In this document: in pieces, positions 6,841 through 34,622 of the stretch
How positions within the stretch are numbered: the stretch's first letter is position 1
Layout of the letters: each line of letters begins with the position of its first letter
Assembly: GCA_013297775.1 (NCBI GenBank)
Contig: JAAFIL010000038.1
Location: 1-34,624, forward strand
Origin: Bacteroidota bacterium
GTDB lineage: Bacteria > Bacteroidota > Bacteroidia > B-17B0 > Aurantibacillaceae
Direction: 5' to 3'
Length of the DNA stretch: 34,624 bases
Program-made: the position numbers and the translations under genes
Notes under the pieces: model-generated
What the model was told of the DNA's origin: nothing
Database searches by the model: none
What the model saw: the letters and a program-made list of their open reading frames with translations, nothing else

Positions 6841-8181
6841 ATGGAAGCAATTAAGTTTATTGATTTATTCGCTGGTATTGGTGGGCTTCGTCTTGGATTT
6901 GAGGAAGCCTTTAAAAATACTGGATTGAAAACAGAATGTGTAATGACTTCTGAAATAAAACCGTATGGTTTGAAAGTTTTGGAAGCAAATTTTTCTCACG
7001 ATTATTTTGTCGGTGATATTACAAAAGTTAAAAATGAAGCTATTCCAGACTTTGATTTTTTATTAGGTGGGTTTCCTTGCCAGCCCTTTAGTGCTGCTGG
7101 AAATCGTTTAGGATTTACTGACACGAGAGGTACTTTATTTTTTGAAATTGAAAGAATACTTGGACATAAAAAACCCTATGGATTTATTCTTGAAAACGTT
7201 GAAGGACTTGTAAAACACGACCTTGAAAATAAAAAAGATGAAATTGGTAGAACACTTAAAACAATTGTCGAAAAATTAGAAGCACTTGGATATAACACAA
7301 CTTGGAAAGTTTTAAATTCTGCTGATTTTGCACTACCACAAGCAAGGAAAAGAATATTTATTGTAGGCACTTTGAATGAAAAAGTGCAATTAAATAATTT
7401 CCCTGTAAAACGTAAAAAAATTAAAAGCATTTTAGAAAAAGGCTTGCCTTCAATGAAAAGTAAATTTGCTGACTTGCTTTTACAACATTTTACTTTAGAA
7501 GAATTGCACGGAAAATCCATAAAAGACAAACGTGGTGGAGATGATAATATACACAGTTGGGACATTGAATTAAAGGGTAGTATTACAAAAGAGCAATCAA
7601 TTCTACTAAGTAAATTATTTAAAGAAAGGCGAAAAAAACAGTGGTGTGTCGAAATCGGAATTGATTGGATGGATGGAATACCATTGACTTTAGAACAGAT
7701 AAAAACGTTTCACGACTCGCCAAACCTAAAAGAAATATTGGACGATTTGGTAGCTAAAAAATATTTGAAAATTGAACACCCCAAAAGTTTAGTTAGAGAA
7801 GTAACTTTATTAGGGTCTAAAACGTTTCGTCAAGAAAATCCGAAAATTAAAGCAGGTTACAATATTGTTTCGGGCAAATTGAGTTATGAAATAAACAAAA
7901 TACTTGACCCAAATGGAATAACGCCAACACTTGTAGCTACTGATATGGCTCGTCTGGTTGTGCCTAACGGAACAGGATTAAGAAGAATGACACTTCGTGA
8001 AGGGCTTCGGTTGTTCGGTTATCCCGAATGGTTTAAAATGCCAGTAACAGATGGTGAAGGTTTTGACTTACTTGGAAATACTGTTGCTGTAAATGTTGTT
8101 ACTGCGGTTGCCGAAAGGTTAGCAAATGTTTACAAAGAAACTCTCTTAACTTCCAAATTAGAACCCGTGTGTGCTTTGTAG
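6841..8181 (+). CDS. DNA (cytosine-5) methyltransferase, type II
   Basis: A C5-cytosine methyltransferase of the Dcm/HhaI type; 446 residues. Motif I (SAM binding) is FIDLFAGIGGLRLGF at residues 6-20, motif IV has the catalytic Cys in GGFPCQPFSAAG (C80), motif VI is ENVEGL, motif VIII QARKRIFIVGT, and motif X is GNTVAVNVVTAVAERL near the C-terminus. The target recognition region lies between motifs VIII and IX (about residues 190-350). The convergent endonuclease relic resembles the NgoBV type (GGNNCC), which suggests that target, but I cannot read specificity from this protein. Its 3' end overlaps the extended endonuclease frame by about 50 bp. With the endonuclease broken it may now act as an orphan methylase. 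Confidence 0.93.
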   Translation: MEAIKFIDLFAGIGGLRLGFEEAFKNTGLKTECVMTSEIKPYGLKVLEANFSHDYFVGDITKVKNEAIPDFDFLLGGFPCQPFSAAGNRLGFTDTRGTLFFEIERILGHKKPYGFILENVEGLVKHDLENKKDEIGRTLKTIVEKLEALGYNTTWKVLNSADFALPQARKRIFIVGTLNEKVQLNNFPVKRKKIKSILEKGLPSMKSKFADLLLQHFTLEELHGKSIKDKRGGDDNIHSWDIELKGSITKEQSILLSKLFKERRKKQWCVEIGIDWMDGIPLTLEQIKTFHDSPNLKEILDDLVAKKYLKIEHPKSLVREVTLLGSKTFRQENPKIKAGYNIVSGKLSYEINKILDPNGITPTLVATDMARLVVPNGTGLRRMTLREGLRLFGYPEWFKMPVTDGEGFDLLGNTVAVNVVTAVAERLANVYKETLLTSKLEPVCAL

Positions 8182-8828
8182 TTTTTGATAACACTTTTCA
8201 ACCAATGAGAATTATCATGATGCGTTTTTGAGTATTGGTATCGTGTTTCATTTAATGCAGTCAGAAATTCTTCTTTTGATTTGAATGCGCCAAATTTTGA
8301 CCTTTCCGAAAACCAAATTATTGGTCTGATATTGTAAATTACTTTTTTCTTTTCTTAAACTTTCAATGGATATGTTGAACTCCCGCCTGATAATTCCCAA
8401 ATCTTTTTCAGCCAAATATTTTTGATTGTTATTTCAGAACCTTTCATTTGATAGGCTAAAATCAAATAGTCAGAATCTATTCTATAGGCATTTGTCAAAA
8501 GTGAATTACTATAAGAGTCAAAGTTAGCCAAATCAAAACCAGGGCCACGGTCAAAGTCGAAAGTTTTAATTTCTAAAAGTCCTTTTTTGTAGTTTGTTGT
8601 ATCTAAAAAAATGTCGGGAAATGTTTGTGATTGTGGGTTTTCTTCAAAATCAATTTTCTCGCTCTTCATCCATTCCTTTAGCCATTCTTGAATTAAATTT
8701 CCAACTGTGTCTTTGGTTTCAATTTTTACGGTAATGTCTTTAAGCGTAAAGTTTATTCGCCCTGTTTGCCCAACTAATTTGTAGTCATTTACAAGTTTTT
8801 TATATAGTTGTTCTGCAGATACTTTCAT
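8130..8828 (-). pseudogene. Type II restriction endonuclease, NgoBV-like, broken by an in-frame TAA
   Basis: From the ATG at 8828 the frame encodes 157 residues and stops at TAA (8355-8357). Reading on in the same frame gives about 74 more sensible residues, including VIYNIRPIIWFSERSKFGAF and HWLKSVIKNY, up to a stop at 8130-8132. The whole would be near 232 residues, a normal size for this kind of enzyme. The PD-(D/E)xK site is in the first part: FPDIFL (D72) and LLEIKTFD (E86, K88). The bases around the stop read PLKV-TAA-EKKKV, as expected if CAA (Gln) became TAA. The NgoBV family call is from memory and moderate. The cognate methyltransferase is convergent and intact. Sequencing error or a functional short protein are the alternatives. 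Confidence 0.75.
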
Positions 8829-19387: not shown

Positions 19388-20524
19388 TTAATCATTCTTG
19401 ACCATCAGTTCGGCTTCCATTGCTTCAAATAATGCGTGAATATTATTTAATCCAAAGCCCTCATAATTATTAACACGCTGTACTATTTCATAAAAAAAAG
19501 TAGCACGATCGCCAATTGGTGCCGTAAATATTTGGAAGAGCAATGCATCGTCTAAAACATCGCACAATACACCATGCTTCTTTAAAAGCGTTACATCTAG
19601 GTTTGGGTACTTGGATGCTAACTTCTCATAATACACATCGGGGTATTTCGTAAACTTAACGCCATTTTGCTTAAGTAATTCAACCGATTTAAAAATATTA
19701 CCCGAAGCAAATGCTATGTGCTGTATGCCCGCTCCATAATTTTGATCAATAAAAAGTTGAACTTGAGATTTAACGCCATGCTCGGGCTCTACTAATACGT
19801 TATTCATATTTTTATTCTCCGACTGTAATACTTTCAACAACATCCCAATTTTCTTTTCGCCTGACTGCTTCTCTCCAACTGCTTTTCGCTCATCAAACTT
19901 TTTTACTGTTTTTGAATTGAAAATATTATTAAAATAATTTTCCCACAAATTAATTTCGTTTAATCGTAAGGCACAAGCAACATGATCTATTTTTTCTAAC
20001 TCTGTATCTTCTGATGGTAAATCCCATTCAGCCTCTATGTTTTTATAGCCAGGTATAAAATCACCTCTGTAATTATCATAATTAATCAATACAATTTCAT
20101 TATCATCAAATACTTTTAAAGAGGCTTGTTCTACCGTTCCTTTCTCATCGGAGAGAATGTATGGATGTTGTAAGGCAATGGCTCCGTTTTTTATAGCTTC
20201 AGTAAAAAACTCTTGTACGTTGTGTACCTTTACTGCAATCTTCTTTATACCGTTTCCATGCAGGTCAACAAAAGAAACAATTTTATATGAACTTGGCTGC
20301 GATGCCGAAGTAATAACTAGTTTAATATCATTTTTAACTATGTAATACGAACACTTATCTTCTATGCCGGTTTCGGGCCCACAATAGGCTACAACTTTAA
20401 ACCCTAAGGCTTTAACATGCCAATAAACAACCATTTTTGCCATACCTACATAATACTCTATGTAGTCGTATTCCATTTTCAAAAAATCTGTTTCTACTAT
20501 TTCATTCTTTTTCAAATTTTCCAT
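19388..20524 (-). CDS. 4-hydroxymandelate synthase-like / HPPD-family Fe(II) dioxygenase
   Basis: The 378 residues form the two-domain vicinal-oxygen-chelate fold of 4-hydroxyphenylpyruvate dioxygenase (HPPD) and 4-hydroxymandelate synthase (HmaS). Iron ligands are H181 (IDHVACAL), H269 (GIQHIAF) and E346 (FYEIVQR); the C-terminal lid helix GFGLNNIHALFEAME is present. HPPDs usually have PxNEP on the substrate strand; here it is VLVEP (residues 243-247), without the Pro and Asn, as in HmaS. HmaS turns 4-hydroxyphenylpyruvate into 4-hydroxymandelate, a step to hydroxyphenylglycine. The gene ends 10 bp past an HpgT-like aminotransferase, which supports this reading. Plain HPPD for tyrosine breakdown is the alternative, but the location inside an NRPS cluster argues against it. 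Confidence 0.75.
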   Translation of the reverse strand: MENLKKNEIVETDFLKMEYDYIEYYVGMAKMVVYWHVKALGFKVVAYCGPETGIEDKCSYYIVKNDIKLVITSASQPSSYKIVSFVDLHGNGIKKIAVKVHNVQEFFTEAIKNGAIALQHPYILSDEKGTVEQASLKVFDDNEIVLINYDNYRGDFIPGYKNIEAEWDLPSEDTELEKIDHVACALRLNEINLWENYFNNIFNSKTVKKFDERKAVGEKQSGEKKIGMLLKVLQSENKNMNNVLVEPEHGVKSQVQLFIDQNYGAGIQHIAFASGNIFKSVELLKQNGVKFTKYPDVYYEKLASKYPNLDVTLLKKHGVLCDVLDDALLFQIFTAPIGDRATFFYEIVQRVNNYEGFGLNNIHALFEAMEAELMVKND

Positions 20525-20534
20525 AAGTTATGTT

Positions 20535-21836
20535 TTAGTGATTGGTTATTCTACTTTTAAAATATGTTGCCAAATTTTTTATGGCAGATTCAATTTCATG
20601 ATCTTTAATATTACTAAATGCAAGTCTAATTTCGTTGCTGCCGCCTTTAGCTAAATAGAAGAACGACATTGGTGTAACAATTACTTGATGGTTCTCTGCA
20701 CAAAAAACCACGTCGGCTTTAGTTACATTAAATGGTACATAAATGGTTATAAAAAATCCTCCATTGGGAATGTTCCAACTAATTTCTTTAGCCCAAGGAA
20801 ACTTTTTTACATCCATCCATTTTTTTAAAGAAGCTAATAATTGATTTCGTTTGCGCTTCATACTGAGTACCTTTTCGTTATTCATTTTCTTTAAAGAAAA
20901 GTTATTTTGAATAAGGATTCCGCCAAATATAGCTTGGTTGATGGAGGAGGTATTAACCGTTAAATAGCCTTTTGTTTTAGCCATCAAATCGCTTAGTGCT
21001 TCGGGTTTGCCATTATTCAAAACTTGCTGGTCGGCAACCATTGCGCCTAAACGCAAGGAAGGGTAAAGTGTTTTTGAGAAGGATCTTAAATAGATCACTC
21101 TTTTATTTACGTCGAGTGCTTTTAGTGTTAAAGACTTTTTTCCGCTATAAATAAACTCGCTATAAGCGTTGTCCTCTAAAATTAAAAAATCATATTCCAT
21201 TGCTAACTCTAACAAGCGATGTCTATTTTCGAGTGTCATACTATTGCCTGTTGGATTTTGATGATCGGGTATAACGTAAACAACTTTTACTTTTTTACCT
21301 TTAGTTTTAAAATACTTTATTTTTTCTTCTAATGTTTGAAGTGATATTCCGTCTTGATTAACTGGAACGGGTTCCATTTGATAGCCAGCAATTATTGAAA
21401 AATGTGTGATGCCAACATAAGCGGGATCTTCAACTATAATAACATCACTATTGCGGTTACACAAAGTTAATATAGCCATCGCAAAACTTTCTTGAGTACC
21501 AACTGTAACCAGTATATCCTCGGGTTTTACATTTATTCTTTCATCCTTATATAAATACTTAGCAACTAATGTATTGATAATCCCTTTCGTTCGGTTATAC
21601 TGCCCGAGGCTGTTTAGTACTTTTAATTTACTTTTCTTTTCAGAAGTGGCAATTGTTTTAACGTATAAATCGAAATACTTTGAAAAATCTTTAAGGTCAA
21701 AGTAGTCTTCATCGGGTCGGCCGGATGCAAAAGAAATGGCCTTAGGATATTTTAGCTGAATTTCATTTAAAAACCCCATAACATCTTCTCCTACGTGGTT
21801 CAACAATGGATTTATATCACTCAAACTTTTTTTCAT
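20535..21836 (-). CDS. PLP-dependent aminotransferase, HpgT-like (arylglycine-forming)
   Basis: A 433-residue fold-type I aminotransferase. Seen motifs are ISFASGRP (34-41), GQYNRTKGII (78-87), VIPDHQNPTG (188-197), EDNAYSEF (221-228), the PLP lysine in RSFSKTLYPSLRLG (K255), TVNTSSINQAI and the terminal RLAFSN arginine motif. YxRTKGII, TVNTSxxxQA and the FASGRP start resemble HpgT, which transaminates arylglyoxylates to (dihydroxy- or hydroxy-)phenylglycine in glycopeptide-type clusters. It is 10 bp upstream of the HmaS-like gene and 46 bp downstream of the PKS gene, so they should be co-transcribed. A general 2-aminoadipate/aspartate-type aminotransferase (MocR-like domain alone) is the alternative. 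Confidence 0.8.
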   Translation of the reverse strand: MKKSLSDINPLLNHVGEDVMGFLNEIQLKYPKAISFASGRPDEDYFDLKDFSKYFDLYVKTIATSEKKSKLKVLNSLGQYNRTKGIINTLVAKYLYKDERINVKPEDILVTVGTQESFAMAILTLCNRNSDVIIVEDPAYVGITHFSIIAGYQMEPVPVNQDGISLQTLEEKIKYFKTKGKKVKVVYVIPDHQNPTGNSMTLENRHRLLELAMEYDFLILEDNAYSEFIYSGKKSLTLKALDVNKRVIYLRSFSKTLYPSLRLGAMVADQQVLNNGKPEALSDLMAKTKGYLTVNTSSINQAIFGGILIQNNFSLKKMNNEKVLSMKRKRNQLLASLKKWMDVKKFPWAKEISWNIPNGGFFITIYVPFNVTKADVVFCAENHQVIVTPMSFFYLAKGGSNEIRLAFSNIKDHEIESAIKNLATYFKSRITNH

Positions 21837-21882: not shown

Positions 21883-24800
21883 TTATAATCGTATCTGTTT
21901 AGAACTTACAGCTTGACTTTCGGGCTTCTTTAATTCTTTAACTTCTAATGCCAGTTCTATTTCTTTACCCAATTCTTCTATGTTACTTTTTCTAAAAAAA
22001 TCGGCAATACCAATTTCGATATCAAATGCTTTGTGAATTCTTTTTAGTAACACAGATGCTTTTAATGAGTCGCCTCCCAACTCAAAAAAATCATCATTTA
22101 CGCCTATTTCATCGTACCCAAACAGTTCTTTCCATAATTCGCATAATGCTTTTTCGGTTTCTGATTGTGCGTTTTTAAATGCTGCATTAACGGGTGGTGC
22201 TTCTGTGTAACGATTCTTTTCAACCTGATTTGTATCTTGTATCTCTAAAGTTGCGTTGGGTATAAATTTATGTAAAGCAGAAACTTGAACATTACCATCC
22301 TCCTTCATCATTTCACTTTGTAATAAAGATGCATTTAATTCAATAAACTTTTTAATTGGATTTACTCGTGAAGGAAATAGTATTTTATCGAATGAATAAC
22401 CAGGTGCTTGTAACTTATTCCGAACTTCATTTAGATAATACTTATTCCAGTCCACCTCTACGCCGCAAGCCCAAAGCGACCCCAGCGCACTTAGTAAATA
22501 ATAGGAATCATCCTTTGTTTCTTTAGGATGTTTAAGAACAGTTACAAAATTCAAATCAGAACTATAATTTTTATTTTGTCTTACAAAAGTTAAAAGTGTT
22601 TTTGATGAGCCTATTTCAATATAAGTGCCGTATCCTTCTCTTAATAAAGTATCTAATCCTTTACAAAAGTTAACCGTTTCCTTTAAGTGTTTTACCCAAT
22701 ACTTAGGTGATACCGCTTCTTCCTTTTCAATAGGAAGACCTGTTGTACAAGAAATAAATGGGTACTTAGGCTCATTGAAATTTATTTTATTTAATACTAC
22801 TTCATAATCCTTCAAAATTGGATTCATCATTTGAGAATGGAAGGCATGAGATGTTTTAAGTTTAGAAAAAGGAATTTCCTTTGCGCTAAAAAGTTCGGCA
22901 ACGGCATCTATATCTGATGTACTTCCAGAAATAACGCAGCTTGTTTCTGTATTTATAGCTGCTATACTTAAACTTGGCGAAATAAACGCTGTAACTTGAT
23001 TCATTGGTAAATCAACACTAAGCATAGAACCGCGCTCTAAATCACTCATTAATTGGGCGCGCTTAACAATAAGTTTTAATCCATCCTCAAAGCTAAATAC
23101 TTCGCTGATACAAGCCGCTACATACTCACCAAGACTGTGTCCTATCATGTTTGAAGGAGTTATGCCTAACTCTAGTAACAACTTGGCAAAGGCGTATTCT
23201 AACAAGAATAATAAGGGTTGCGTATAACGGGTATCGTTAATCAAATCGTTATCTGGTTTTTCGACATCGTTATATCCAATAATAGCTGCATAATCTTCTC
23301 CCGTCTCCCGCTTCAAAATTTCAAAACCTTTATCCATACAGGATTTAAAAAACGGATAGTGCCAATAAATTTGTTTACCCATTTCATAATATTGACTTCC
23401 TTGTCCCGAAAACAGAAAGACAATTCCCTTTTTTTCTTTGGTTTGGAAAGGCTCGTTTGCGCTTATTTTATTGAGCTGTATAATGGCATCATCGGTGCTC
23501 TTACAAAGAATAAAATTTCGGTACTTAAATCTATTTCTTCTTGCTTTTAAAGTAAACGCTAAATCGGCTAAATTTATTTCTTCGTTAGCTTTCAAGAAAT
23601 TTTCTAGGTTATGCTGATAATTTTTTATTGAGGTTTTTGTTTTTGCACTATATACTAAGAGTTGATAGGCTTTTGGTGGACTGGTTTCTATTGGCGCAGG
23701 AGCTTCCTCAAGTAGAACGTGCGCATTAGTGCCACCTATTCCGAAACTGCTAACCCCAGCCAACCTTGCTGTTTCGCTTAACCATTCTGTTGAGGTTGAA
23801 TTAACATAAAATGGACCTGCTTTAAAATTAATTTCGGGATTAGGTACTTTGAAATTTAACGATGGTGGAAGTACTTTATTTTTGAGGGCGAGTGCTGTTT
23901 TTATTAAACTGGCAATGCCTGCCGCTGCATCTAAATGCCCCAGGTTTGTTTTTAAAGATCCAATTGCACATTGGTGAGAGGTATCGTAATTAAAGGCTTT
24001 ATTTAATGCTTCAATTTCGATGGGATCTCCCAGTTTAGTTCCAGTTCCGTGAGCTTCCACGTAAGAGATTTGTTTGGGATCTACTTCTGCCATTTGATGA
24101 GCCGCTTTAATACATTCGTATTGACCAATAATACTTGGTGCGGTGTAACCTACTTTCCGATTGCCATCGTTGTTTACTGAACTTGCACGGATGACACAAT
24201 AAATATAATCACCATCTTTTAAAGCATCTTCTAACCTTTTTAGAACAACCGTTGCTGCACCCTGACCACTGATAACACCCGAAGACTCGCTGTCGAATGC
24301 TCGGCAATGACCATCTTTAGACAATATGGAACCCTCTTCATAAACGTACCCTACATCGGTAGTTGAACTAATACTTGCACCGCCCGCCAAAGCCATTGTA
24401 CATTCTTTCAATAATAAAGCGCGGCAAGCCATGTGTGTTGCTACGAGTGAACTTGAGCAAGCTGTATCAATAAAATAACTTGGGCCTTTTAAATTTAAGG
24501 AATAGGAAACCAATCTACTTACAGAATTACTGTTAGATAGGTGCTTAACAAAAAATGGATTTACATTTTGAGAACTTGACAATGTTACGTGCGTTCGCCA
24601 ATTTATATTATCACTTGCACTAAGAAAACAACCGATTTTATCTGAATAGTTAAATGGGTTATACCCTGCATCTTCGAGCGAAAGCCAAGCCTGTTGATGA
24701 AGCAGTCTTAGCTGAGGATCCATTAGAGCGGCCTCTTCTTGGGTGTAACCAAAGAAAGAATGATCAAAGTTTCCTTCATCCTTTAAAAGAGAATTTACTT

Positions 24801-25005
24801 TAACGTAATTTTTATTTTTAAGTTGTTCATCACTTGCACCTAATTGCTTCAATTCAGTATCAGAATAAAAGTGGAGTAATTCATTGCCCTCCACTAAATG
24901 TTTCCAAAATGCTATTAAGTTATCAGACTCAGGAAAATTTCCTGACATCCCAATTATGGCAATATCTTTTTTTATGGATCTTTTATTCATACTTAATTTA
25001 AACAA
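21883..25005 (-). CDS. Type I polyketide synthase module, KS-AT-T, no reductive domains
   Basis: A 1040-residue single-module PKS. KS spans about residues 13-435 with C183 (DTACSSSL), H319 (EAHGTGT) and H357 (NLGHLDAAAG). AT spans about 525-830 with S624 (GHSLGEY) and HAFH (720-723), the malonyl-CoA type. The carrier domain is about 950-1020 with GGDSL (S980). There is no KR, DH, ER or methyltransferase, so the unit added should keep a beta-keto group unless changed by an enzyme from elsewhere. The second Met (start at 24990) fits the usual KS N-terminus as well as the first. It follows the two-module NRPS after a 244-bp gap, so it probably extends that peptide by C2. The C-terminal tail is basic rather than acidic. 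Confidence 0.93.
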   Translation of the reverse strand: MFKLSMNKRSIKKDIAIIGMSGNFPESDNLIAFWKHLVEGNELLHFYSDTELKQLGASDEQLKNKNYVKVNSLLKDEGNFDHSFFGYTQEEAALMDPQLRLLHQQAWLSLEDAGYNPFNYSDKIGCFLSASDNINWRTHVTLSSSQNVNPFFVKHLSNSNSVSRLVSYSLNLKGPSYFIDTACSSSLVATHMACRALLLKECTMALAGGASISSTTDVGYVYEEGSILSKDGHCRAFDSESSGVISGQGAATVVLKRLEDALKDGDYIYCVIRASSVNNDGNRKVGYTAPSIIGQYECIKAAHQMAEVDPKQISYVEAHGTGTKLGDPIEIEALNKAFNYDTSHQCAIGSLKTNLGHLDAAAGIASLIKTALALKNKVLPPSLNFKVPNPEINFKAGPFYVNSTSTEWLSETARLAGVSSFGIGGTNAHVLLEEAPAPIETSPPKAYQLLVYSAKTKTSIKNYQHNLENFLKANEEINLADLAFTLKARRNRFKYRNFILCKSTDDAIIQLNKISANEPFQTKEKKGIVFLFSGQGSQYYEMGKQIYWHYPFFKSCMDKGFEILKRETGEDYAAIIGYNDVEKPDNDLINDTRYTQPLLFLLEYAFAKLLLELGITPSNMIGHSLGEYVAACISEVFSFEDGLKLIVKRAQLMSDLERGSMLSVDLPMNQVTAFISPSLSIAAINTETSCVISGSTSDIDAVAELFSAKEIPFSKLKTSHAFHSQMMNPILKDYEVVLNKINFNEPKYPFISCTTGLPIEKEEAVSPKYWVKHLKETVNFCKGLDTLLREGYGTYIEIGSSKTLLTFVRQNKNYSSDLNFVTVLKHPKETKDDSYYLLSALGSLWACGVEVDWNKYYLNEVRNKLQAPGYSFDKILFPSRVNPIKKFIELNASLLQSEMMKEDGNVQVSALHKFIPNATLEIQDTNQVEKNRYTEAPPVNAAFKNAQSETEKALCELWKELFGYDEIGVNDDFFELGGDSLKASVLLKRIHKAFDIEIGIADFFRKSNIEELGKEIELALEVKELKKPESQAVSSKQIRL

Positions 25006-25263: not shown

Positions 25264-28200
25264 TTATTTCATCCATTTCATTCGAGATGTTATTTTCGCT
25301 TTCTGTTTCGACTATACCACTCGATTTATTGTGTATATATTCTGTTAATGTAGCTACATTTGAAAACTCGAATACAGAAACGGCGTTAAGGTTTGACTTT
25401 AACTCTTTATTAATAGAAGTATAAAGTTTGATTAGTCCTAACGAACTCATCCCGAGATCAAAAAAATTATCGAAAATACCAATGTGGTCTTTTGGTTTTC
25501 CTAAAATATCGGTTATGGCTTCAACAATTTTTTCTTCTATTTTGTTTCTTGGTGCCACATATTCTACTGCATTTGAAACGCTATGTTCGTTCACATCGGG
25601 GAGTAATTTCCTATCTATTTTGCCATTTGTTGTAATGGGCATTTTTTCTAATTGAACAAAGTAGGCGGGCAGCATGTATTCGGGTAAGGTTTCTTTTAAA
25701 AACGATTTTATTTCGCTGGTATTTTGTTCGGTTGAACTGATATAATAAGCAATCAGTTCCTTTTCTTTATTTTGATTGTCTTTGGCAATAACAACGGCTT
25801 CTTCTATCTGTTTGTGTTTTAATAAAGCCTGTTCTATTTCGCCCAATTCTATTCGGTAACCTCGCACTTTTACTTGATCATCTTTTCGCCCCATAAATTC
25901 TATGCTACCGTCGGTTAACCATCGCCCTTGGTCGCCGGTTTTATAAACGTGTGTTCCTTCTTTGAATGGATTTTTTATAAATTTCACACGTGTTAATTCA
26001 TCTTGGTTTAAATAGCCTTTTGCTAAACCGTCACCAGCAATACATATTTCGCCCGTTATACCAATTGGACAGAGACGTTGCTCGGTATTTAAAATATACA
26101 CCTGATTGTTTCCAAATGGTTTACCTAACGATAGTTTGAAATCCTTTTCGGTAATGTCAATGTGCTTAATTAATTTTCCGATGGTGGTTTCGGTTGGTCC
26201 GTAGTGATTATACACGTTACAAGTAATTTTACCCACTTTCATGTATTCTACTATTTCCTCAGGAAATTGTTCACCACCTAAAATCAAACATTTATTTGGT
26301 ATATAAACCTCTTCGTCTGCTTGTAAAGCTTTCCAGTGCGAGGGTGTTATCTTCAAGCAATCTAAATTAGCGGCTCTTAATTTATTTACTTGAATTATAT
26401 CTTCTTTGGCGAGTATATGTAAACTTGCACCTATTAATAGCGAGGTATAAATAACTGTATTTCCTAAGTCGGCGGCTATTGTAGAAATAAGCCCAAAAGT
26501 GGCGCATTCTCTCATATTCGTTTTTGATAACACGCCAAACGAATAATCAACAAGCGACTTAGAACTAATCATTACACCTTTCGGTTTACCCGTTGAACCC
26601 GACGTATATATTACATAAGCCAAATTATGGGGTTGGGTGATGCGTGGACATTTTTCGGGGCTATAGTTTTCGGCATCAAATTCTACATCAATTGCAAAAA
26701 TATTACCATCGTAATAATCAATATCGTGAATAAAATTTACTTCTGTGATTAATACTTTTAAAGAGGCATCCTTTAAAATAAAATCTTTTCTTGAAGAAGG
26801 ATCTTCGGGATCTATTGGTACATAAGCCCCACCAGCTTTTAATATCCCTAGTATGGAAACAATGAGCCATTCGCTCCGGTGTAATTGTATCCCTATCAAA
26901 TCATCGGGTTTAATTTCGTAAGTAGTTCTTAAGTAATGCGCTAAACGATTCGATAGTTCATCCAGTTCTTTATAACTTAAGTGTTTATCTTTAAAAACAA
27001 CGGCGGTATGATTAGGGGTTTTTACTGCTTGTGCCTCAAACAATTCCACCACCGTTTTTTCGCTTGGATAGCTTATTTCACTTGTATTGAAGGTTTTGAG
27101 CAACGTTTCGTTTTCATCTACTGAGAGGAAATTTAATTGAGCAATTTGTTCTTTGGGGTTTTCCATAACGGCATGCAATAACTGCTTGAAATGTTTTATC
27201 AAAACCGTTATCATCTTTTTATCATACACATCCGTATTATAAACAACTTGTAACGACACGCAATTGCTTACTTCAAAAAGTCCTATATTCAAATCAAACT
27301 TTGAAGCTCGGTAACCTGTATCTTCAATACTATTAATAGTTTTTTCATCTAACTCTACTCCAACTATTTTTTCACCTGTATTTAATAGAAAAAGCATCAC
27401 GTCAAATATCCCGTTTCGGCTTGCATCTCTCTTAAAATTCAATTCTTCGGCTAACCTTATAAAAGGATACATTTGATGATTATAACTTTTAAGGGTATTT
27501 TCTTTTACCGTTTTATAAAATCCATCGAAACTTTCGTTGGGGTTTACTTCATTTCTTAAAGCTAAGGTATTCGAGTAAAAGCCAATCTGATTTTCAAGAT
27601 CAGCGTGTTCTCTGGCAGCTACCGAAGTTCCAATTATTAAATCGGTTTGTGAGGTGTATCGGTACATTAAAATATTCCAAGCAGTAAGTAAGCCAATGAA
27701 AAGACTTCCACCATGTTCTTCAGCATACGTTTTTAATTTTGCGGTTGTTGCCCTATCAACATAAGCATCTAGTCCACTACCGTTACTTGTTTTCATTTTT
27801 GGTCGTTGCAAAGTACTTGGCAAATCCAATAAGGGTAATTCGCCTTTTAAGATGTCTAACCAAAAAGTTCTATGAACTTGAAAAGACTCTTCCTTTAATT
27901 GAGTGAGTTGCCAAGCCGAATAGTCTTTATATTGAATACGAAGTGGCTTTAACTTAGGGGCCTTACCTTTTTTATAAGCTTCATAGTATGCTAATACATC
28001 TTTGGTTAAAACCTCTGACGACCACCCATCGCTAATGATGTGGTGTATATTAAAATAAAAGATGTATCTCTTCTCATCAACTTGTAGTAAAGCTGCCCGC
28101 AGTAAAGGCCCCTTCTCCAAATCAAATTTACGATATGCATCTGCGGCTATATAATTTGCAGCTTGCACTTCTTTTTCTTTTTCTTGTCGGAGGTCTTTAT

Positions 28201-31200
28201 AATCTATCTTAAATCCAAAATCTTCTTTTTCTAATATCCATTGTCTTATTTCTCCTGTTTCATCTTCTTTAAAAATGGTTCTTAAAATTTCGTGACGCTC
28301 TATGGCAGACTCTAATGCTTTCATAAAACTATTAATGTCTATATCCTGTTCCAGCCGAATAGTATCGGGTAAATTATAAGCAATAGAAGCCCCCTCAAAC
28401 TGACTTAATACCCAGAGGCGGCGTTGGGCATCGGATATGGCATAACTTTTTTGATGGCTTGTCTTTTCTATCTGAGAGAATTGTTTTTTCTTTGAATTGC
28501 GTATAAGTCTAGCTTGCGACTCTATATTGATGTGTGCAAATAAATCTTTTAAAGATAATTTTACAGATAAAGCCTTTTCATACTCATTACCTAATCGTAC
28601 GGCCTTAATACTGTGTCCGCCTAAAGCAAAAAACGAATCTTTAACCCCAATATTTTCTCTTACCAAAACTTTCTGCCAAATACTTACCAGTTGTTCTTCT
28701 AGCTTATTTCTTGGCGCAACATATTTCACTCCATTTGCCATACCCATCTCTTGCGGATCTGGTAACGATTTTCGGTCTATCTTACCATTGCTGTTAAGCG
28801 GAAATGATTCGAGTTGAACAAAATAATCGGGTATCATATAATCAGGCAAAGACTGTTCAAGATAGGAGCGTAATTCGCTTGCATTTTGTTTTGTTTTAGC
28901 AATAATATAGGCTACTAATTCTCTCTCTTTACTTTGATTTTCTCTAGCCAACACCACAACCTCTTCCACTTCCTTATTTTTTAACAAGGCGTGTTCAACC
29001 TCTCCTAACTCAATTCTATGCCCTCGTATTTTTACTTGATTATCTTTTCTACCAATAAACTCAATATGACCATCCTCTGTCCATCTGCCTAAATCGCCTG
29101 TTTTATATAGCCGATCATCTTTACGAAAAGGACTCGAGATAAACTTTTCTGCTGTTAACTCAGATTTGTTTAGGTAGCCTCTTGCTATCTGAACACCTCC
29201 TAATAGTATCTCGCCTATTACACCTTGCGGTTGAAGTTTGTTTAATTCGTTAACTATATACACTACGGTATTATCAACAGGCTTCCCTATTGTTACAAAC
29301 TTTCCCTTACCAGGATATTTCGTTAAGTTCACGGCAGTAACATCAACAGAAGCCTCCGTTGGCCCGTAGTAATTATGTAACTCTATAGAACCCGTCCGTT
29401 CACCGAACTCATCCACGAGACTCTTTTGTAATGCCTCACCACTACAAACAACATGACGAAGCGTGGTTAATTTTAGCCAATCTATATTCTCCAACATTGC
29501 ACTTAGCATGGAGGGAACAAAGTGTATAATACTTACTTTATGGTTAATAATTAACTCTTCTAAATACGAAGGATCCTTATGTCCGTTCGGAAGTGCAACT
29601 ACAAGTTTACTGCCTATTAATAAAGGAAGAAAAAGTTCCCAAACTGATACATCAAAAGTAGTAGGTGTTTTTTGAAGGAAAATATCTTGGGCAACTAAAT
29701 TTAAATCACGGCGCATCCATAAAAGTCGGTTCACAACTCCTGTATGTTCTACTAAAACCCCTTTAGGATTGCCTGTTGAACCCGAAGTATAAATTACATA
29801 CGCTAGGTTATCCGATTTTATAGAAGACGGTGCTTTAGATTTTGAATACTCTATTTGATTTTCTTTGAATTTGTTTAATAGTTCTTCATCTATACAAACT
29901 TTACAATTTATATCTTTCTCCATATACTCGATACGTTCCTTTGGATAACTTGGATCTATGGGCACATAAGCTGCACCCGATTTTAATATCCCAAGTATCG
30001 TTATCATCAACCACTCACTTCGCTCTAATTTCATCCCAATCAAATCATCAGGTTGGATGTGATAGTTGGTTTGCAGATAATGCGCCAGTTGATTCGATTG
30101 TTCCTCCAACTCCTTATATGTTAGCTCTTTGTTTTCAAAGGCGACAGCCGGGCTATTGGGTGTTTCTTTTACCTGTGCTTCAAATAGATCTACAATTGTT
30201 TTTTCTTTAGGATAATTTACTCGAGTATCATTAAAAGTATGCAGTAACTCGTGTTCTTCTTCTTGACTTAATGCTTTGTATTGAGAACAAAAACTCATAT
30301 CCGCTATTTCGTGGATATTGACTAGCTTACAAGATGGGTATTGTAATTGCCAACTCTCCGTTTTACTGGAGTTAGCTCTTCCCCCGTTAAATATAACGCA
30401 GCGAACTTGAAGACTCGTATCTGCTTTTATGTACTTAATTAAATTATAAAAATCAATCGGTGTGTGATTTAATACGGTAACTTTTTCGTTTAATAATAAG
30501 GATAGGTATAAATCTGTATCTTGAATGATGGGCGTTGGAACAATTACCACTTTTGCACCCGTTAGTAAAGCTCCATAAATTTCCAGTAAAGAAACATCCG
30601 ATTCATTCGCATAAATATTTGTCCAAACATCTGTACTGCTAAAATCGTAGAAAGGATTCTTTGTATTGAGCAACTTCACTATATCCGTATGTTTTACGGC
30701 AATCTCTCGAGGTTTATCTAATGTTTCGAAATCATAAATAGTACAGGCTAAATAATCTGCTGCAACATTAATAGTTGGATTTGTTAAAGGCTGATTATTT
30801 AAAGCTATTCGTCCGTATTGATATTTATGTTTTGTTAATACATCATTTTCTTTTTTTGGTCTTTCTTTATTGACATGAAGTATAACATCGTACCTAAACT
30901 TTGTTAACTCATTTTCAATAGTTCTAATTTTTTCACTAATAATAGTGCTTACTACTGCCGCTTCGTCCATTACTAAATCTTCAAAGTAACCACGCGAAAC
31001 AAATAAGTCGGCTGAGAAATCTGTTTTTGTTACATAGTTTTCATCTTTATTGTCTTTTTTAAATGCCTCTAAATCTTCAATCAAATCATTCTTCTTATTA
31101 AGGTCCATTACATCACCAATAAATATTCTCCCTTCTTTTTTAAGTAATCCAATACAATCTCTTATTACCTTTAGTAAATAATTATGCCCATCAAAATTTT

Positions 31201-33646
31201 GAATTACACTATTCACAATGATGATGTCAAAATCACATTCCTCAATCTTAGAAATATCATGCGCCGCCATCTGTTTCAACTTCACATTTTTCAATCCTTT
31301 CTGTGCAATCAATTTTGTTGTTTTTGAGAGGATAACAGGCGAAAGATCGGTTCCATAGTAAAATGAAACTTCGGGAGCTATTTTACTTAATGTTAATCCA
31401 GAAGAACAACCTATCTCTAACACACGCATTCCAGTATGTAAACTGTTTTTAAGTTTAGCATAGACATTCATTCTGTACTCTTCCATTTCAACATCGGGAA
31501 TTGCCATACCTGTATAGCTGCTCAACCACCCACCTCCAGTAATCTGATCGGCGGTGCTCTCTCCGACATAATCCCATAAATCTTGGCTTCGCATCACATT
31601 CACGTGATGCTCCCTTTCTGATCGAACGTCGTCAACATCTGTACATAAATAATGCTTTAAGTTAGTTGAAGACCACTGTAATCTATTTGCAGGCTCTATA
31701 AATTCTTTCTCCGTAATCATTACCCGTGCCGCAGTATCAGATACCATAAACATTAACTGTTCTTCAGATAACTTTGGATTCATTGGTACATAAGCCCCTC
31801 CTACTTTTAATACCCCTAACATTGCAGCTATTGTATCTACACCTCTATTTAATAATAAAGCTACCTTTTCTTCTTTCTCTAATCTGACTTCGTTCAATAA
31901 AAAATTAGCGATTTGATTTGAACGTTCATCTAATTCTTGGTAGGTAAACGCCGTATCCTTATATACTAATGCTAAATTATGTTTGTATTCTTTTACTTGA
32001 CTTTGAAAAACTTCTGTCACGGTTTTCTCATCGAAAGTGCGTGTTTTAAATTCATCGAGAACTACTAAATTACTCTGTTTCTCTTCTTCTGTTAAATAAT
32101 CTATAGATTCTATTGGTGTTAATGGATTTGATGTACCCAAAGCCACCAGTAACTTAAAGTGGCGAATGAGCTGTTCGATCGTTTCTTTTTCATACACATC
32201 TGTATTATACTCTATTAACAAACGTAAGTAATGACCTTCTTCGCAGAAATCGAATTTAATATCATAAATACAAGTACCACTTTCATACTCAGTGATTGCA
32301 TCTATTTCTTCTTGAGATAGTATTGCATCCCGAGTCTTATCTCCAGTATTTTGAAGAACGACAAGAATATCAAATATAGCACTTCGACTAGTAAGCCTAT
32401 TTTGTTCTAAGTCCTCTACTAAACGATCAAAAGGATAGGTTTGGTGAGCATTAGCCTCTATAATTGTATTTCTTACTTTTTGATAAATTTCTTCAAAGCT
32501 ATTCGTTTTATGAACCGATGTTCTTAGTACCAATGTATTAACATAAAATCCAATTTGATTTTCTAAATCAGGGTGATTTCTTCCAGCAACTGGTGTACCT
32601 ATTATTATATCGTGTTGACCTGTATATTTGTACAAAAGTGCTTTTAAAACAGAAACGATACTCATAAAAAAAGTACCTTTACGTTTTAGTGCGTAATCTT
32701 TTAACGCATTAGTCAAATCTTTATTGAGGTATGTAACAACCGTCTTACCATTATGTGTCTTTACTTGCGGGCGTGGCTTAGAACCAAGTAAAGTCAACAC
32801 AGGTAATTCTTTTGAGAGAATATCTAACCAATAGGCTTTATGTTTTTTAAACGCATCCTCATTAAACTGCGAAAGTTGCCAAGCCGAATAATCTTTATAC
32901 TGAATAGTGAGTGGCTTTATATCTTCAGCGATTTGTTCAGGTGTGTTATTTTCTTTATAAGCTTCGTAATACGCAAACAAATCCTTAATTAACACGTTCA
33001 TTGACCAGCCGTCACTAATGATATGATGCATATTGTAATAAAAAACATACTCCTCTGATCCTACTTGAAGTAAGCTTGCACGTAGAATAGGTCCTTTCTC
33101 TAAATCGAAGGCTTTTAATGCGTCGTTACCAATATAATGCTTTACACTTTCGTCCTTATTCTCTTCACTTTTGAAGTCTTTATACTCAATTTTAAAACCG
33201 AGGTCTTCTAATGTTAAGATAACTTGTCTTACCTCTCCAGTTTCATCTATTTTAAAAACTGTTCTTAATATCTCGTGGCGTTCTATTGTTGCATTGATTG
33301 CTCTTTTGAAAGCGTCAACATCAATACCTTGCTTCAGATAAATATTTCCAGACATATTATAGGCCACAGACGCATCTTCAAATTGGCTTAACACCCACAG
33401 CCTTCGCTGAGCATCAGAAATAGAATAACTGTCTTGCTTATCAACTGGAACAATGGTTTGACTTACCAAAATTTGTGCTTTCAAAAAGGAAATCAAATCG
33501 GTTTTATTATCTGTAATTTCCTGCCTATCAGAGGAAGTCAACTGCTTCAGATTGCCTCTAACTCTTAGATTCTCAAAAGAATCATCTAAAGAAATAGAGA
33601 TCTGTTTTTTTTTAAGTTTTGCTAAAAAAGCAAGTATATTATCCAT
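25250..33646 (-). CDS. Hybrid NRPS, two modules plus an interrupted relic A domain with methyltransferase
   Basis: A 2798-residue assembly-line protein. Residues 1-60 look like a TubC-type docking domain. C domain about 70-515 (HHIISDG from 207). Residues 525-1125 hold an incomplete A domain split by a methyltransferase (separate entry). A complete A domain follows (about 1135-1630; TSGSTGNPKG from 1287, NYYGPTE), code DVWHVSYVDK, close to serine, and T with S1679. Module 2: C from about 1735, A of the STIAADLGNT type, code DLTKIGHIGK, close to aspartate, and a final T with DLGMSSL instead of LGGHSL. The C-terminus NEMDEIIDLM is short and acidic, as in partners of TubC-type docking domains. 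No epimerase. It is 8 bp after the upstream NRPS gene. Confidence 0.95.
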   Translation of the reverse strand: MDNILAFLAKLKKKQISISLDDSFENLRVRGNLKQLTSSDRQEITDNKTDLISFLKAQILVSQTIVPVDKQDSYSISDAQRRLWVLSQFEDASVAYNMSGNIYLKQGIDVDAFKRAINATIERHEILRTVFKIDETGEVRQVILTLEDLGFKIEYKDFKSEENKDESVKHYIGNDALKAFDLEKGPILRASLLQVGSEEYVFYYNMHHIISDGWSMNVLIKDLFAYYEAYKENNTPEQIAEDIKPLTIQYKDYSAWQLSQFNEDAFKKHKAYWLDILSKELPVLTLLGSKPRPQVKTHNGKTVVTYLNKDLTNALKDYALKRKGTFFMSIVSVLKALLYKYTGQHDIIIGTPVAGRNHPDLENQIGFYVNTLVLRTSVHKTNSFEEIYQKVRNTIIEANAHQTYPFDRLVEDLEQNRLTSRSAIFDILVVLQNTGDKTRDAILSQEEIDAITEYESGTCIYDIKFDFCEEGHYLRLLIEYNTDVYEKETIEQLIRHFKLLVALGTSNPLTPIESIDYLTEEEKQSNLVVLDEFKTRTFDEKTVTEVFQSQVKEYKHNLALVYKDTAFTYQELDERSNQIANFLLNEVRLEKEEKVALLLNRGVDTIAAMLGVLKVGGAYVPMNPKLSEEQLMFMVSDTAARVMITEKEFIEPANRLQWSSTNLKHYLCTDVDDVRSEREHHVNVMRSQDLWDYVGESTADQITGGGWLSSYTGMAIPDVEMEEYRMNVYAKLKNSLHTGMRVLEIGCSSGLTLSKIAPEVSFYYGTDLSPVILSKTTKLIAQKGLKNVKLKQMAAHDISKIEECDFDIIIVNSVIQNFDGHNYLLKVIRDCIGLLKKEGRIFIGDVMDLNKKNDLIEDLEAFKKDNKDENYVTKTDFSADLFVSRGYFEDLVMDEAAVVSTIISEKIRTIENELTKFRYDVILHVNKERPKKENDVLTKHKYQYGRIALNNQPLTNPTINVAADYLACTIYDFETLDKPREIAVKHTDIVKLLNTKNPFYDFSSTDVWTNIYANESDVSLLEIYGALLTGAKVVIVPTPIIQDTDLYLSLLLNEKVTVLNHTPIDFYNLIKYIKADTSLQVRCVIFNGGRANSSKTESWQLQYPSCKLVNIHEIADMSFCSQYKALSQEEEHELLHTFNDTRVNYPKEKTIVDLFEAQVKETPNSPAVAFENKELTYKELEEQSNQLAHYLQTNYHIQPDDLIGMKLERSEWLMITILGILKSGAAYVPIDPSYPKERIEYMEKDINCKVCIDEELLNKFKENQIEYSKSKAPSSIKSDNLAYVIYTSGSTGNPKGVLVEHTGVVNRLLWMRRDLNLVAQDIFLQKTPTTFDVSVWELFLPLLIGSKLVVALPNGHKDPSYLEELIINHKVSIIHFVPSMLSAMLENIDWLKLTTLRHVVCSGEALQKSLVDEFGERTGSIELHNYYGPTEASVDVTAVNLTKYPGKGKFVTIGKPVDNTVVYIVNELNKLQPQGVIGEILLGGVQIARGYLNKSELTAEKFISSPFRKDDRLYKTGDLGRWTEDGHIEFIGRKDNQVKIRGHRIELGEVEHALLKNKEVEEVVVLARENQSKERELVAYIIAKTKQNASELRSYLEQSLPDYMIPDYFVQLESFPLNSNGKIDRKSLPDPQEMGMANGVKYVAPRNKLEEQLVSIWQKVLVRENIGVKDSFFALGGHSIKAVRLGNEYEKALSVKLSLKDLFAHINIESQARLIRNSKKKQFSQIEKTSHQKSYAISDAQRRLWVLSQFEGASIAYNLPDTIRLEQDIDINSFMKALESAIERHEILRTIFKEDETGEIRQWILEKEDFGFKIDYKDLRQEKEKEVQAANYIAADAYRKFDLEKGPLLRAALLQVDEKRYIFYFNIHHIISDGWSSEVLTKDVLAYYEAYKKGKAPKLKPLRIQYKDYSAWQLTQLKEESFQVHRTFWLDILKGELPLLDLPSTLQRPKMKTSNGSGLDAYVDRATTAKLKTYAEEHGGSLFIGLLTAWNILMYRYTSQTDLIIGTSVAAREHADLENQIGFYSNTLALRNEVNPNESFDGFYKTVKENTLKSYNHQMYPFIRLAEELNFKRDASRNGIFDVMLFLLNTGEKIVGVELDEKTINSIEDTGYRASKFDLNIGLFEVSNCVSLQVVYNTDVYDKKMITVLIKHFKQLLHAVMENPKEQIAQLNFLSVDENETLLKTFNTSEISYPSEKTVVELFEAQAVKTPNHTAVVFKDKHLSYKELDELSNRLAHYLRTTYEIKPDDLIGIQLHRSEWLIVSILGILKAGGAYVPIDPEDPSSRKDFILKDASLKVLITEVNFIHDIDYYDGNIFAIDVEFDAENYSPEKCPRITQPHNLAYVIYTSGSTGKPKGVMISSKSLVDYSFGVLSKTNMRECATFGLISTIAADLGNTVIYTSLLIGASLHILAKEDIIQVNKLRAANLDCLKITPSHWKALQADEEVYIPNKCLILGGEQFPEEIVEYMKVGKITCNVYNHYGPTETTIGKLIKHIDITEKDFKLSLGKPFGNNQVYILNTEQRLCPIGITGEICIAGDGLAKGYLNQDELTRVKFIKNPFKEGTHVYKTGDQGRWLTDGSIEFMGRKDDQVKVRGYRIELGEIEQALLKHKQIEEAVVIAKDNQNKEKELIAYYISSTEQNTSEIKSFLKETLPEYMLPAYFVQLEKMPITTNGKIDRKLLPDVNEHSVSNAVEYVAPRNKIEEKIVEAITDILGKPKDHIGIFDNFFDLGMSSLGLIKLYTSINKELKSNLNAVSVFEFSNVATLTEYIHNKSSGIVETESENNISNEMDEIIDLM
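30272..32074 (-). other. Relic adenylation domain interrupted by a SAM-dependent methyltransferase, inside the NRPS
   Basis: Residues about 525-1125 of the NRPS. The A-domain start is normal up to core motif A2 (LKVGGAYVPMNP, 613-624). Then a methyltransferase runs from about 688 to 928: LWDYVGESTADQITGGGWL, SAM motif VLEIGCSSGLTLSKIAP, YYGTDLSP and the end RYDVILHV. After it the A domain resumes, but A3 has decayed to LACTIYDFETLDKPREI (967-981) where an active domain has YTSGSTGxPKG. An A4-like part (SDVSLLEIYGALLTGA) follows; A5 to A10 are missing and the sequence joins the linker of the next, complete A domain. It probably cannot activate an amino acid; the methyltransferase looks intact. 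Confidence 0.8.
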
Positions 33647-33653
33647 AAAATTA

Positions 33654-34622
33654 TTATATTATGATTTCATCTTGTTCAATATCCATTTCTTCACCTTTAG
33701 TCTTTATCCATCTCAACGTGCTTATATCTTCAGCCAATCCATTAATGGTTGGGTTAATGATAAAATTTCTAAGATTAATTTTGACTCCGAAACTTATCTC
33801 TACTCTGACAATTAACTGAGTCGCTTTCAAACTGTGACCACCTAAAATAAAAAAGTCATCGGTAACACCTATCGGTTTGAGTTGTAACAGTTCCTGCCAC
33901 AATTCTACTAAAGCCATCTCCAACTCCGTGCGAGGAGCCACGTATTCCGTTCCGCTTCTCATTCCCACAAACTCTGGGCTAGGTAGTGCCTTACGGTCTA
34001 TCTTTCCATTGCTAGTTAAAGGCAATGCCTCCAACTGAACAAAGTAGGAAGGAAGCATGTAATCGGGTAAACTTAATTTTAAACTGTTACGCAGTTCAAC
34101 TATGTTTTGTTCGTCCGCTGATACAAGATAAGCCACCAACTCTTTTTCATTACTCTGATTCTCTTTGGCAATAACTACCGTCTCTTTTATGGATTCATTC
34201 TTTAACAAGGCATGTTCTATCTCTCCCAACTCAATACGGTAACCGCGTATCTTCACTTGATTATCTTTTCTTCCTATAAACTCAATGTTACCATCGGGTA
34301 GCCATCTGCCCAAGTCCCCAGTCTTATACAAACGCTCGCCTTCCTTAAATGGATGTTTTATAAACTTCTCTTTTGTTAACGCTTCTTGATTTAAGTAACC
34401 TCGTGCTAAACCCTCGCCACCTATACATAACTCGCCTATTGCTCCCTTGGGCACAAGTTGATTTTCTTCGTTTAAAAAATATACTTGCGTATTGGAGATA
34501 GGTTTACCTATCAAATCGCGCTCATCTTTATCTACTCTAAAAACCGTGCTGTAAGTGGTATCTTCCGATGGACCATATAGGTTTCTTATCTCCTTAACTT
34601 TCCCCTTCAATCCATTCCTACA
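33654..34622 (-). CDS. C-terminal part of an upstream NRPS (A-T), cut by the window edge
   Basis: The frame is open to the last bases of the window, so the gene starts beyond the right edge; the TTG at 34610 is not a real start. The visible part begins just before A-domain motif A5 (NLYGPSEDTTYST), continues with A7-A8 (YKTGDLGRW, GRKDNQVKIRGYRIELGEIE) and A10 (NGKIDRKALP), then a carrier domain with LGGHSLKATQL. Only part of the specificity code is visible (L, T, Y, K at its last four places), which does not name a substrate. The C-terminus EEMDIEQDEIII is acidic and should dock on the basic TubC-type start of the next NRPS, 8 bp downstream. There is no termination domain, so the chain is handed on. 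Confidence 0.95.
   Translation of the reverse strand, partial: CRNGLKGKVKEIRNLYGPSEDTTYSTVFRVDKDERDLIGKPISNTQVYFLNEENQLVPKGAIGELCIGGEGLARGYLNQEALTKEKFIKHPFKEGERLYKTGDLGRWLPDGNIEFIGRKDNQVKIRGYRIELGEIEHALLKNESIKETVVIAKENQSNEKELVAYLVSADEQNIVELRNSLKLSLPDYMLPSYFVQLEALPLTSNGKIDRKALPSPEFVGMRSGTEYVAPRTELEMALVELWQELLQLKPIGVTDDFFILGGHSLKATQLIVRVEISFGVKINLRNFIINPTINGLAEDISTLRWIKTKGEEMDIEQDEIII

Follow-up and report, generated by a model that had tools for sequence, protein, structure and literature searches.

By convention, the core motifs of adenylation (A) domains in nonribosomal peptide synthetases (NRPSs) are numbered A1 to A10, and we use that numbering here. Some A domains are interrupted by an embedded methyltransferase (MT), and because such domains are well known, we rule out that the locus described here is a wholly new kind of system. 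In TioN, MarQ and TtcC/TtmB, the MT sits between A2 and A3, as it does in our locus, and the accessible part of PMC11355689 lists S-methylation for TioN and MarQ and N-methylation for thalassospiramide TtcC and TtmB. KtzH (kutzneride) is, like our locus, a serine module with an embedded MT; the same part of that source gives its insertion site as A8/A9 and its reaction as serine O-methylation. The MT of TioS is named a backbone N-methyltransferase in the accessible text of the lyngbyapeptin paper (PMC10127204), which sets the presumed O-MT of LynB3, similar to arginine methyltransferases, apart from TioS-like N-MTs.

The window, i.e., the whole stretch of DNA that was analysed, is one whole contig of a draft genome (G000:C61, 34,624 bases). 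In its NRPS gene, an MT-interrupted A domain appears to have decayed to a remnant lying directly ahead of a second, complete A domain (the live A domain). We consider it probable, from sequence comparison, that the remnant serves as a pseudo-A scaffold to the MT, which would methylate the residue of the neighbouring serine-type A domain. The features are as follows:

33654..34622, minus strand: C-terminal part of an A domain and a T domain closing the upstream NRPS gene, which is truncated at the contig end
25250..33646, minus strand: NRPS gene, 2798 aa, read with Pfam and purpose-built profiles as C - A_N - MT - pseudo-A - A(Ser-like) - T - C - A(DLTKIGHIGK) - T
32081..33436, minus strand: condensation (C) domain, HHIISDG, with 65% identity to the C domain preceding the intact A(MT)A module of L039
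~31652..32029, minus strand: A_N, the A-domain N-terminal part up to core A2, keeping 17 of the 19 columns conserved in 26 intact relatives
~30815..31552, minus strand: SAM-dependent MT inserted between the A2 and A3 positions, keeping 66 of 67 conserved columns
~30269..30769, minus strand: pseudo-A remnant of apparent threonine-type ancestry, ending near A5, with A3 and A5 lost and 9 of 24 conserved columns kept
~30224..30274, minus strand: junction, a C-A-linker-like stretch ALSQEEEHELLHTFNDT directly after the remnant, its position shared with Flavobacterium and Niastella
28751..30205, minus strand: complete A domain with serine-like specificity residues DVWHVSYVDK and with A3, A5, A7, A8 and A10 motifs present
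28508..28723, minus strand: single T domain of the relic module, GGHSIKA
25340..28453, minus strand: next C-A-T module of the same protein, A code DLTKIGHIGK
21883..25005, minus strand: PKS module KS-AT-ACP, with 62% and 61% identity to genes of Flavobacterium UGB4466 and Niastella populi, respectively

The same profiles place a docking region at the N-terminus of the protein, ahead of the first C domain. A_N contains an A2-like LGVLKVGGAYVPMNP (31775-31819, minus strand), and the MT contains the SAM motif VLEIGCSSG (31397-31423) and scores above the cut-off with Pfam Methyltransf_31, _12, _11, _25 and _23. Across the interrupted domain, the HMM order is A(1-124)-MT-A(121-312) on a profile of length 497, with a weak second A match, and this order, together with an alignment with 26 intact relatives, confirms that the MT splits one A domain between A2 and A3. 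Against the A-domain profile, the remnant scores 89 bits. Its A3 position reads YDFETLDKPRE (30704-30736), compared with YTSGTTGxPKG in threonine-type intact relatives, and its A5 position reads NIHEIADMS (30293-30319), compared with NMYGITETT; A6-A10 are absent. The order that the earlier note had read from the letters (C, A up to A2, MT with VLEIGCSSG, A with A3 replaced by DFETLD and ending near A4/A5, full A, one T) is thus seen in place; the interval it gave for the arrangement, 30272-32074, covers A_N, MT and remnant but leaves the live A domain (28751-30205) outside.

Several neighbouring features deserve mention in their own right. The A C-terminal part of the upstream NRPS gene (33654-34622) has 76% identity to the A domain expected after the relic in Niastella, a hint at A-domain exchange within the cluster. 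Aminotransferase and glyoxalase-fold genes (19388-21836) lie between the PKS and the last NRPS, with 72% and 83% identity to genes adjoining the MT module of L039, and may supply an unusual building block. Further away (6841-8828), a C5 DNA methylase gene adjoins an NgoBV-type restriction endonuclease gene on the opposite strand.

The live A domain is complete against both Pfam AMP-binding (1-384 of 384) and our profile (1-497 of 497). It has serine-type residues as well as complete motifs, and its code DVWHVSYVDK is one residue off DVWHVSLVDK, which we take to be the serine code. Among its single-stretch PDB matches, the highest is Txo2 (452 bits), a serine module by entry title; LgrA (725) and 8xjz (481) are higher, each over two stretches. 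The PDB matches include the serine modules Txo2, Txo1, EntF and FscH, plus other modules. The equivalent domain in Niastella, linked to its relic contig by synteny only, has residues ...NNALTYK, presumably Ala-like and so without a hydroxyl, and the Flavobacterium A fragment after the relic is too short for a code.

To quantify decay, we defined conserved columns as those shared by at least 85% of 26 intact relatives. These rows comprise L031 and, from a scan of 84,980 genomes, 25 of 32 intact loci; L051 (cut), L058 (a copy of L031), L067, L068, L069, L070 and L072 were left out. In the A3-A5 region, the window and the two other relics (see below) keep 9, 8 and 8 of 24 columns, compared with 21-24 in intact rows. 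The MT is kept at 66, 64 and 64 of 67 columns (intact rows 60-67) and A_N at 17, 15 and 15 of 19 (intact rows 15-19). The interrupted A domain thus lacks its own complete set of adenylation motifs, and because the conserved A3-A5 columns are lost and A6-A10 are absent, adenylation by the remnant is very unlikely. These counts bear out the earlier note, which had judged the first A domain decayed and the SAM motif of the MT intact.

The scan covered 84,980 species genomes with an A_N-MT alignment and returned 34 loci; it used two exact peptide patterns, so distant relics can escape it. An intact A3 follows the MT in 32 of these loci (some are cut later by contig ends), and the remaining two, in Flavobacterium sp. 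UGB4466 (L040) and Niastella populi (L041), have a decayed A domain as in the window. The earlier note had asked for its domain order in other Bacteroidota, and these are such cases: both have an open frame, the same junction and then the start of a second A domain, just inside which the contig ends. A three-way alignment of the remnants has no stop codon, three gap columns between the window and either relative, and none between L040 and L041.

Five further searches (395, 87, 299, 394 and 299 genomes, some recurring) gave 36 loci, L093-L128, all read with domain profiles. Three or four candidates per genome were scored in these searches, except in the 87-genome search, where up to 15 were. 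The relic layout occurs among these loci only in L093 (the window), L119 (Niastella) and L123 (Flavobacterium), and across the loci read with an A domain after the MT, A3 is missing only in the window, L040/L123 and L041/L119. The frame of L099 covers only A_N and part of the MT; the insertion in L127 is at A8/A9; and 12 loci (L103, L104, L108-L113, L115-L118) have an A domain with no MT. From a separate 100-genome search, five of the hits were read (L012, L013, L014, L015 and L016), either as such or in longer stretches.

Beyond the contig ends of the two relatives, the T-C-A-T part that follows the live A domain in the window has 60% identity to putative continuations on other Flavobacterium and Niastella contigs. 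When the Niastella genome was searched with the last 130 bases of its relic contig, no other contig repeated them (next best 88% identity). As no end overlap was found, the links from the relic contig to C251 (Niastella) and from C95 to C139 (Flavobacterium) rest on synteny and identity only. The order C-pseudoA(MT)-A is seen in three genomes, with the T domain after it seen directly only in the window. The 89-bit profile score, the threonine-type BLAST matches described below, and the same order and junction in two other genomes make the relic layout more than chance.

The searches also turned up other interrupted A domains. In L141:13928-16585 (minus strand; Flavobacterium UGB4466) and L148:3-2645 (Niastella populi), an A domain is interrupted after A4 by about 350 residues; the insertion in L141 is a luciferase-like monooxygenase, and L148 has the same split. 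The L141 domain shares its contig with the Flavobacterium relic gene, at a distance of about 10 kb, and we take the code of the A domain interrupted in these two genomes to be glycine-like. Eight genomes from a single genus (g103; 2.2-3.3 Mb; L095-L102 and L160) encode a protein with an A2/A3 MT insertion and a very long MT branch; its frame is 1181-1212 residues in seven of the eight, and the code begins DGHDIGAV in the seven read. L160:1472-4996 (G314:C2) is A(MT)A-T-thioesterase and adjoins phosphopantetheinyl transferase and AMP-ligase genes. Two successive A2/A3 MT-interrupted modules occur in Chitinophaga sp. GbtcB8 (L067) and in a Niastella-family genome (L121/L122, G1182:C2). In L124 and L125 (G1438:C4 and G1307:C11, Flavobacterium set), the A domain after the A2/A3 MT is split again at profile positions 373/376 and may hold a second insertion.

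With two relics from related clusters, it is possible to ask whether the remnant still evolves under constraint. Between Flavobacterium and Niastella, dN/dS by NG86 is 0.14 for the C domain, 0.17 for A_N, 0.16 for the MT and 0.33 for the remnant; YN00 gives 0.19, 0.32, 0.22 and 0.43, respectively. The NG86 remnant value has a 95% CI of 0.21-0.54, i.e., below 1, for this one genome pair, and 980 of 1000 paired bootstraps put it above that of the MT. Between these two genera, the remnant is under constraint. With the other two, the window remnant shares only 24-26% identity, so the measure rests on the Flavobacterium-Niastella pair.

We built an AlphaFold2 model of residues 538-1130 (A_N-MT-remnant), using an alignment that included 26 intact and two relic relatives. 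The model was limited to this region because an alignment of the full stretch placed plain A domains on the relic and not on the live A domain. Mean pLDDT is 88.7 and pTM 0.89. The A part overlays NRPS A cores (ObiF1, Z 37.1, 2.1 Å over 308 residues; PheA, Z 36.3) and ends near residue 359 of PheA. Foldseek ranks TioS (5wmm) first, with a TM of only 0.36 over the whole model. Intact homologues shaped the alignment, so the model is best taken as a picture of the parent fold; a control built from the three relic sequences alone reached a pLDDT of 34.2, MT included, and is uninformative either way.

The nearest intact relative is L039, from an uncultured Bacteroidota member, and the same stretch is found in a genome of the window's own family (G495). 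It has a complete A domain with a Leu-type code after the same MT, and its identity to the window is 65% in the C domain, 73% in the MT, 72% in the aminotransferase and 83% in the glyoxalase-fold gene. Its MT module (L039:480-7958) follows a PKS carrier-domain end and does not precede the PKS, so module order changes within the cluster family.

In the MT tree, built without L058 (a copy of L031), L125 (a near copy of L124) and L127 (A8/A9 type), the window groups with L039, L040 and L041 (support 100/98). A wider set of 10 (100/99) adds six rows, all with threonine codes. The relic rows need two changes on this tree; a clade test, run also without L016, L070, L095-L098, L100-L102, L114 and L128, found them as a single clade in 0% of 200 bootstrap trees, and the AU test did not reject their monophyly (p-AU 0.351). 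The window remnant has 34-41% identity to the A domains of the six threonine rows (56-67 of 165 columns) and 19% to the Leu-type A domain of L039 (29 of 154 columns). In BLAST, its eight best matches listed after itself are all threonine-coded A domains (36-42% identity), and the remnant therefore looks threonine-derived. Our reading is a history that begins with an interrupted threonine-type A domain whose core was exchanged in the L039 lineage; in the other lineage, the interrupted domain would have decayed after a complete A domain came to lie behind it. The junction, being common to three genomes, suggests a deletion or recombination between A5 of the interrupted domain and the C-A linker of another module, an event that would have kept the methylation step and changed the amino acid.

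The mechanism we propose starts from a threonine-type A domain, interrupted by an MT between A2 and A3, that would have lost adenylation together with everything after A5 and now stands directly ahead of a complete A domain in a one-T module. The remnant would persist as a pseudo-A platform, folding and holding the MT in position; loading of the T domain would fall to the serine-type A domain, and the MT would methylate the T-bound residue, most likely on the backbone nitrogen, giving N-methylserine in the window. That the MT serves the residue of the serine-type neighbour was also the suggestion of the earlier note and is still its most plausible role. We hold more tentatively, as a possibility somewhat short of an even chance, that pseudo-A and MT form a portable methylation cassette behind which the A domain can be exchanged (serine in the window, presumably Ala-like in Niastella) and the residue stays N-methylated. 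Such a cassette would offer another natural route besides replacing the A core within an interrupted domain, as seemingly happened in L039.

Which atom is methylated can be approached through the company that related MTs keep. Their A domains have codes that we read as Leu-like (L039, L068), Val/Ile-like (L050, L056) and Gly-like (L055, L061), and presumably Asn-like codes occur as well. By the same reading, a 39-row MT tree has 12 rows with threonine/serine codes, 6 with Leu-, Val/Ile- or Gly-like codes and 21 unclassed, with at least three changes of substrate class. Leucine and glycine offer no side-chain nucleophile, so an MT acting on them would target the backbone nitrogen. Against the PDB, the MT has one strong match, TioS 5wmm (E 1.6e-22; next 6.8e-6), which is weak evidence for N over O because TioS is the only MT-interrupted A domain in the PDB lists met, with no O-methylating counterpart for comparison. 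Given the Leu-, Val/Ile- and Gly-like codes, the TioS match and the Ala-like live A domain of Niastella, backbone N-methylation is favoured over O-methylserine, with N-methylserine the most likely product in the window. Codes without a nucleophilic side chain, as we read them, also speak against the rule in the earlier note that A2/A3 insertion means side-chain methylation. We reject that rule: as far as the accessible part of PMC11355689 goes, TtcC and TtmB N-methylate with A2/A3 insertions and KtzH O-methylates with one at A8/A9.

That the MT instead acts on the side-chain oxygen from the same scaffold is, in our view, unlikely, and O-methylserine, offered as an example in the earlier note, no longer stands as the likely product. 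The live A domain is serine-like and, in the nearest-10 MT set, threonine codes occur in six of the seven intact members, so a hydroxyl is often present and leaves room for O-methylation; however, the nearest intact relative, L039, is Leu-type and others appear Val/Ile- or Gly-like. As we read them, the family codes, Asn-like ones included, fit backbone N-methylation, and the Niastella equivalent (...NNALTYK, by its synteny link only) is presumably Ala-like. Within the accessible part of PMC11355689, there is precedent in interrupted A domains for serine O-methylation (KtzH) and cysteine S-methylation (TioN), but the KtzH insertion is at A8/A9. The MT also resembles the N-MT of TioS, whereas LynB3, the presumed O-MT, is arginine-methyltransferase-like according to the accessible text of PMC10127204.

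Less probable again is an MT that acts on the peptidyl or aminoacyl group of a neighbouring carrier protein, with the live A domain independent of it. A remnant without A6-A10 has lost the usual geometry between interrupted A and T domains, but just one T domain follows the MT before the next C domain begins, and three genomes share the order C-pseudoA(MT)-A (its T directly visible only in the window). We give still less credence to a passive fossil, in which MT and remnant decay together and nothing is methylated: the remnant has lost its motifs and evolves faster than its neighbours, but its dN/dS of 0.33 is below 1, and the MT matches its intact relatives in conservation (66 of 67 columns), with a dN/dS of 0.16. 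An assembly or sequencing artefact joining two modules has next to no probability. NRPS genes are repetitive, and the earlier note held that intact homologues would point to such an error; they exist, with intact A3 in 32 of 34 loci, but the decay consists of substitutions within an open frame and recurs, junction included, in separate assemblies from two other genera (L040, L041), which rules out an assembly error. The reading we prefer thus remains a pseudo-A scaffold whose MT serves the neighbouring live A domain.

If that reading is true, the MT of an interrupted A domain is separable in nature from adenylation, with a dead A domain as its mount. The locus would then be a blueprint for methylation in NRPS modules without bifunctional A domains, and which part of an A domain an embedded MT needs would become testable.

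Set against the known systems, the locus shares the A2/A3 insertion site with TioN, MarQ and TtcC/TtmB, but in those the interrupted A domain also adenylates, whereas in the window it is, by its sequence, dead and truncated, and a second, complete A domain supplies the substrate. TioS is both the best PDB match of the MT and the top Foldseek row of the model; its MT, in contrast, is inserted between A8 and A9 of an active A domain and methylates the backbone nitrogen. KtzH likewise has an A8/A9 insertion, into an active serine A domain with O-methylation, whereas here a dead A domain carries the MT. StsA and cereulide-type keto-acid modules also use a non-catalytic A piece as structure around an embedded tailoring domain, but there an A_sub copy stands beside a ketoreductase, and here an A_core piece surrounds an MT. 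Albicidin, ramoplanins and enduracidins are, like the window, cases where a non-functional in-line A domain is retained in the assembly line; in the accessible part of PMC8949500, however, a separate A-T protein loads in trans, whereas in the window the functional A domain is fused behind in cis and the dead one holds the MT. A literature search of open-licence papers met no dead interrupted A domain in cis with a live one, consistent with the earlier note, which knew of no described C-(relic A/MT)-A-T arrangement. What is already known, then, is the MT-interrupted A domain and, from that part of PMC8949500, the dead A domain complemented in trans; what appears new, as far as the open-licence papers searched go, is a dead interrupted A domain together with a live A domain in cis.
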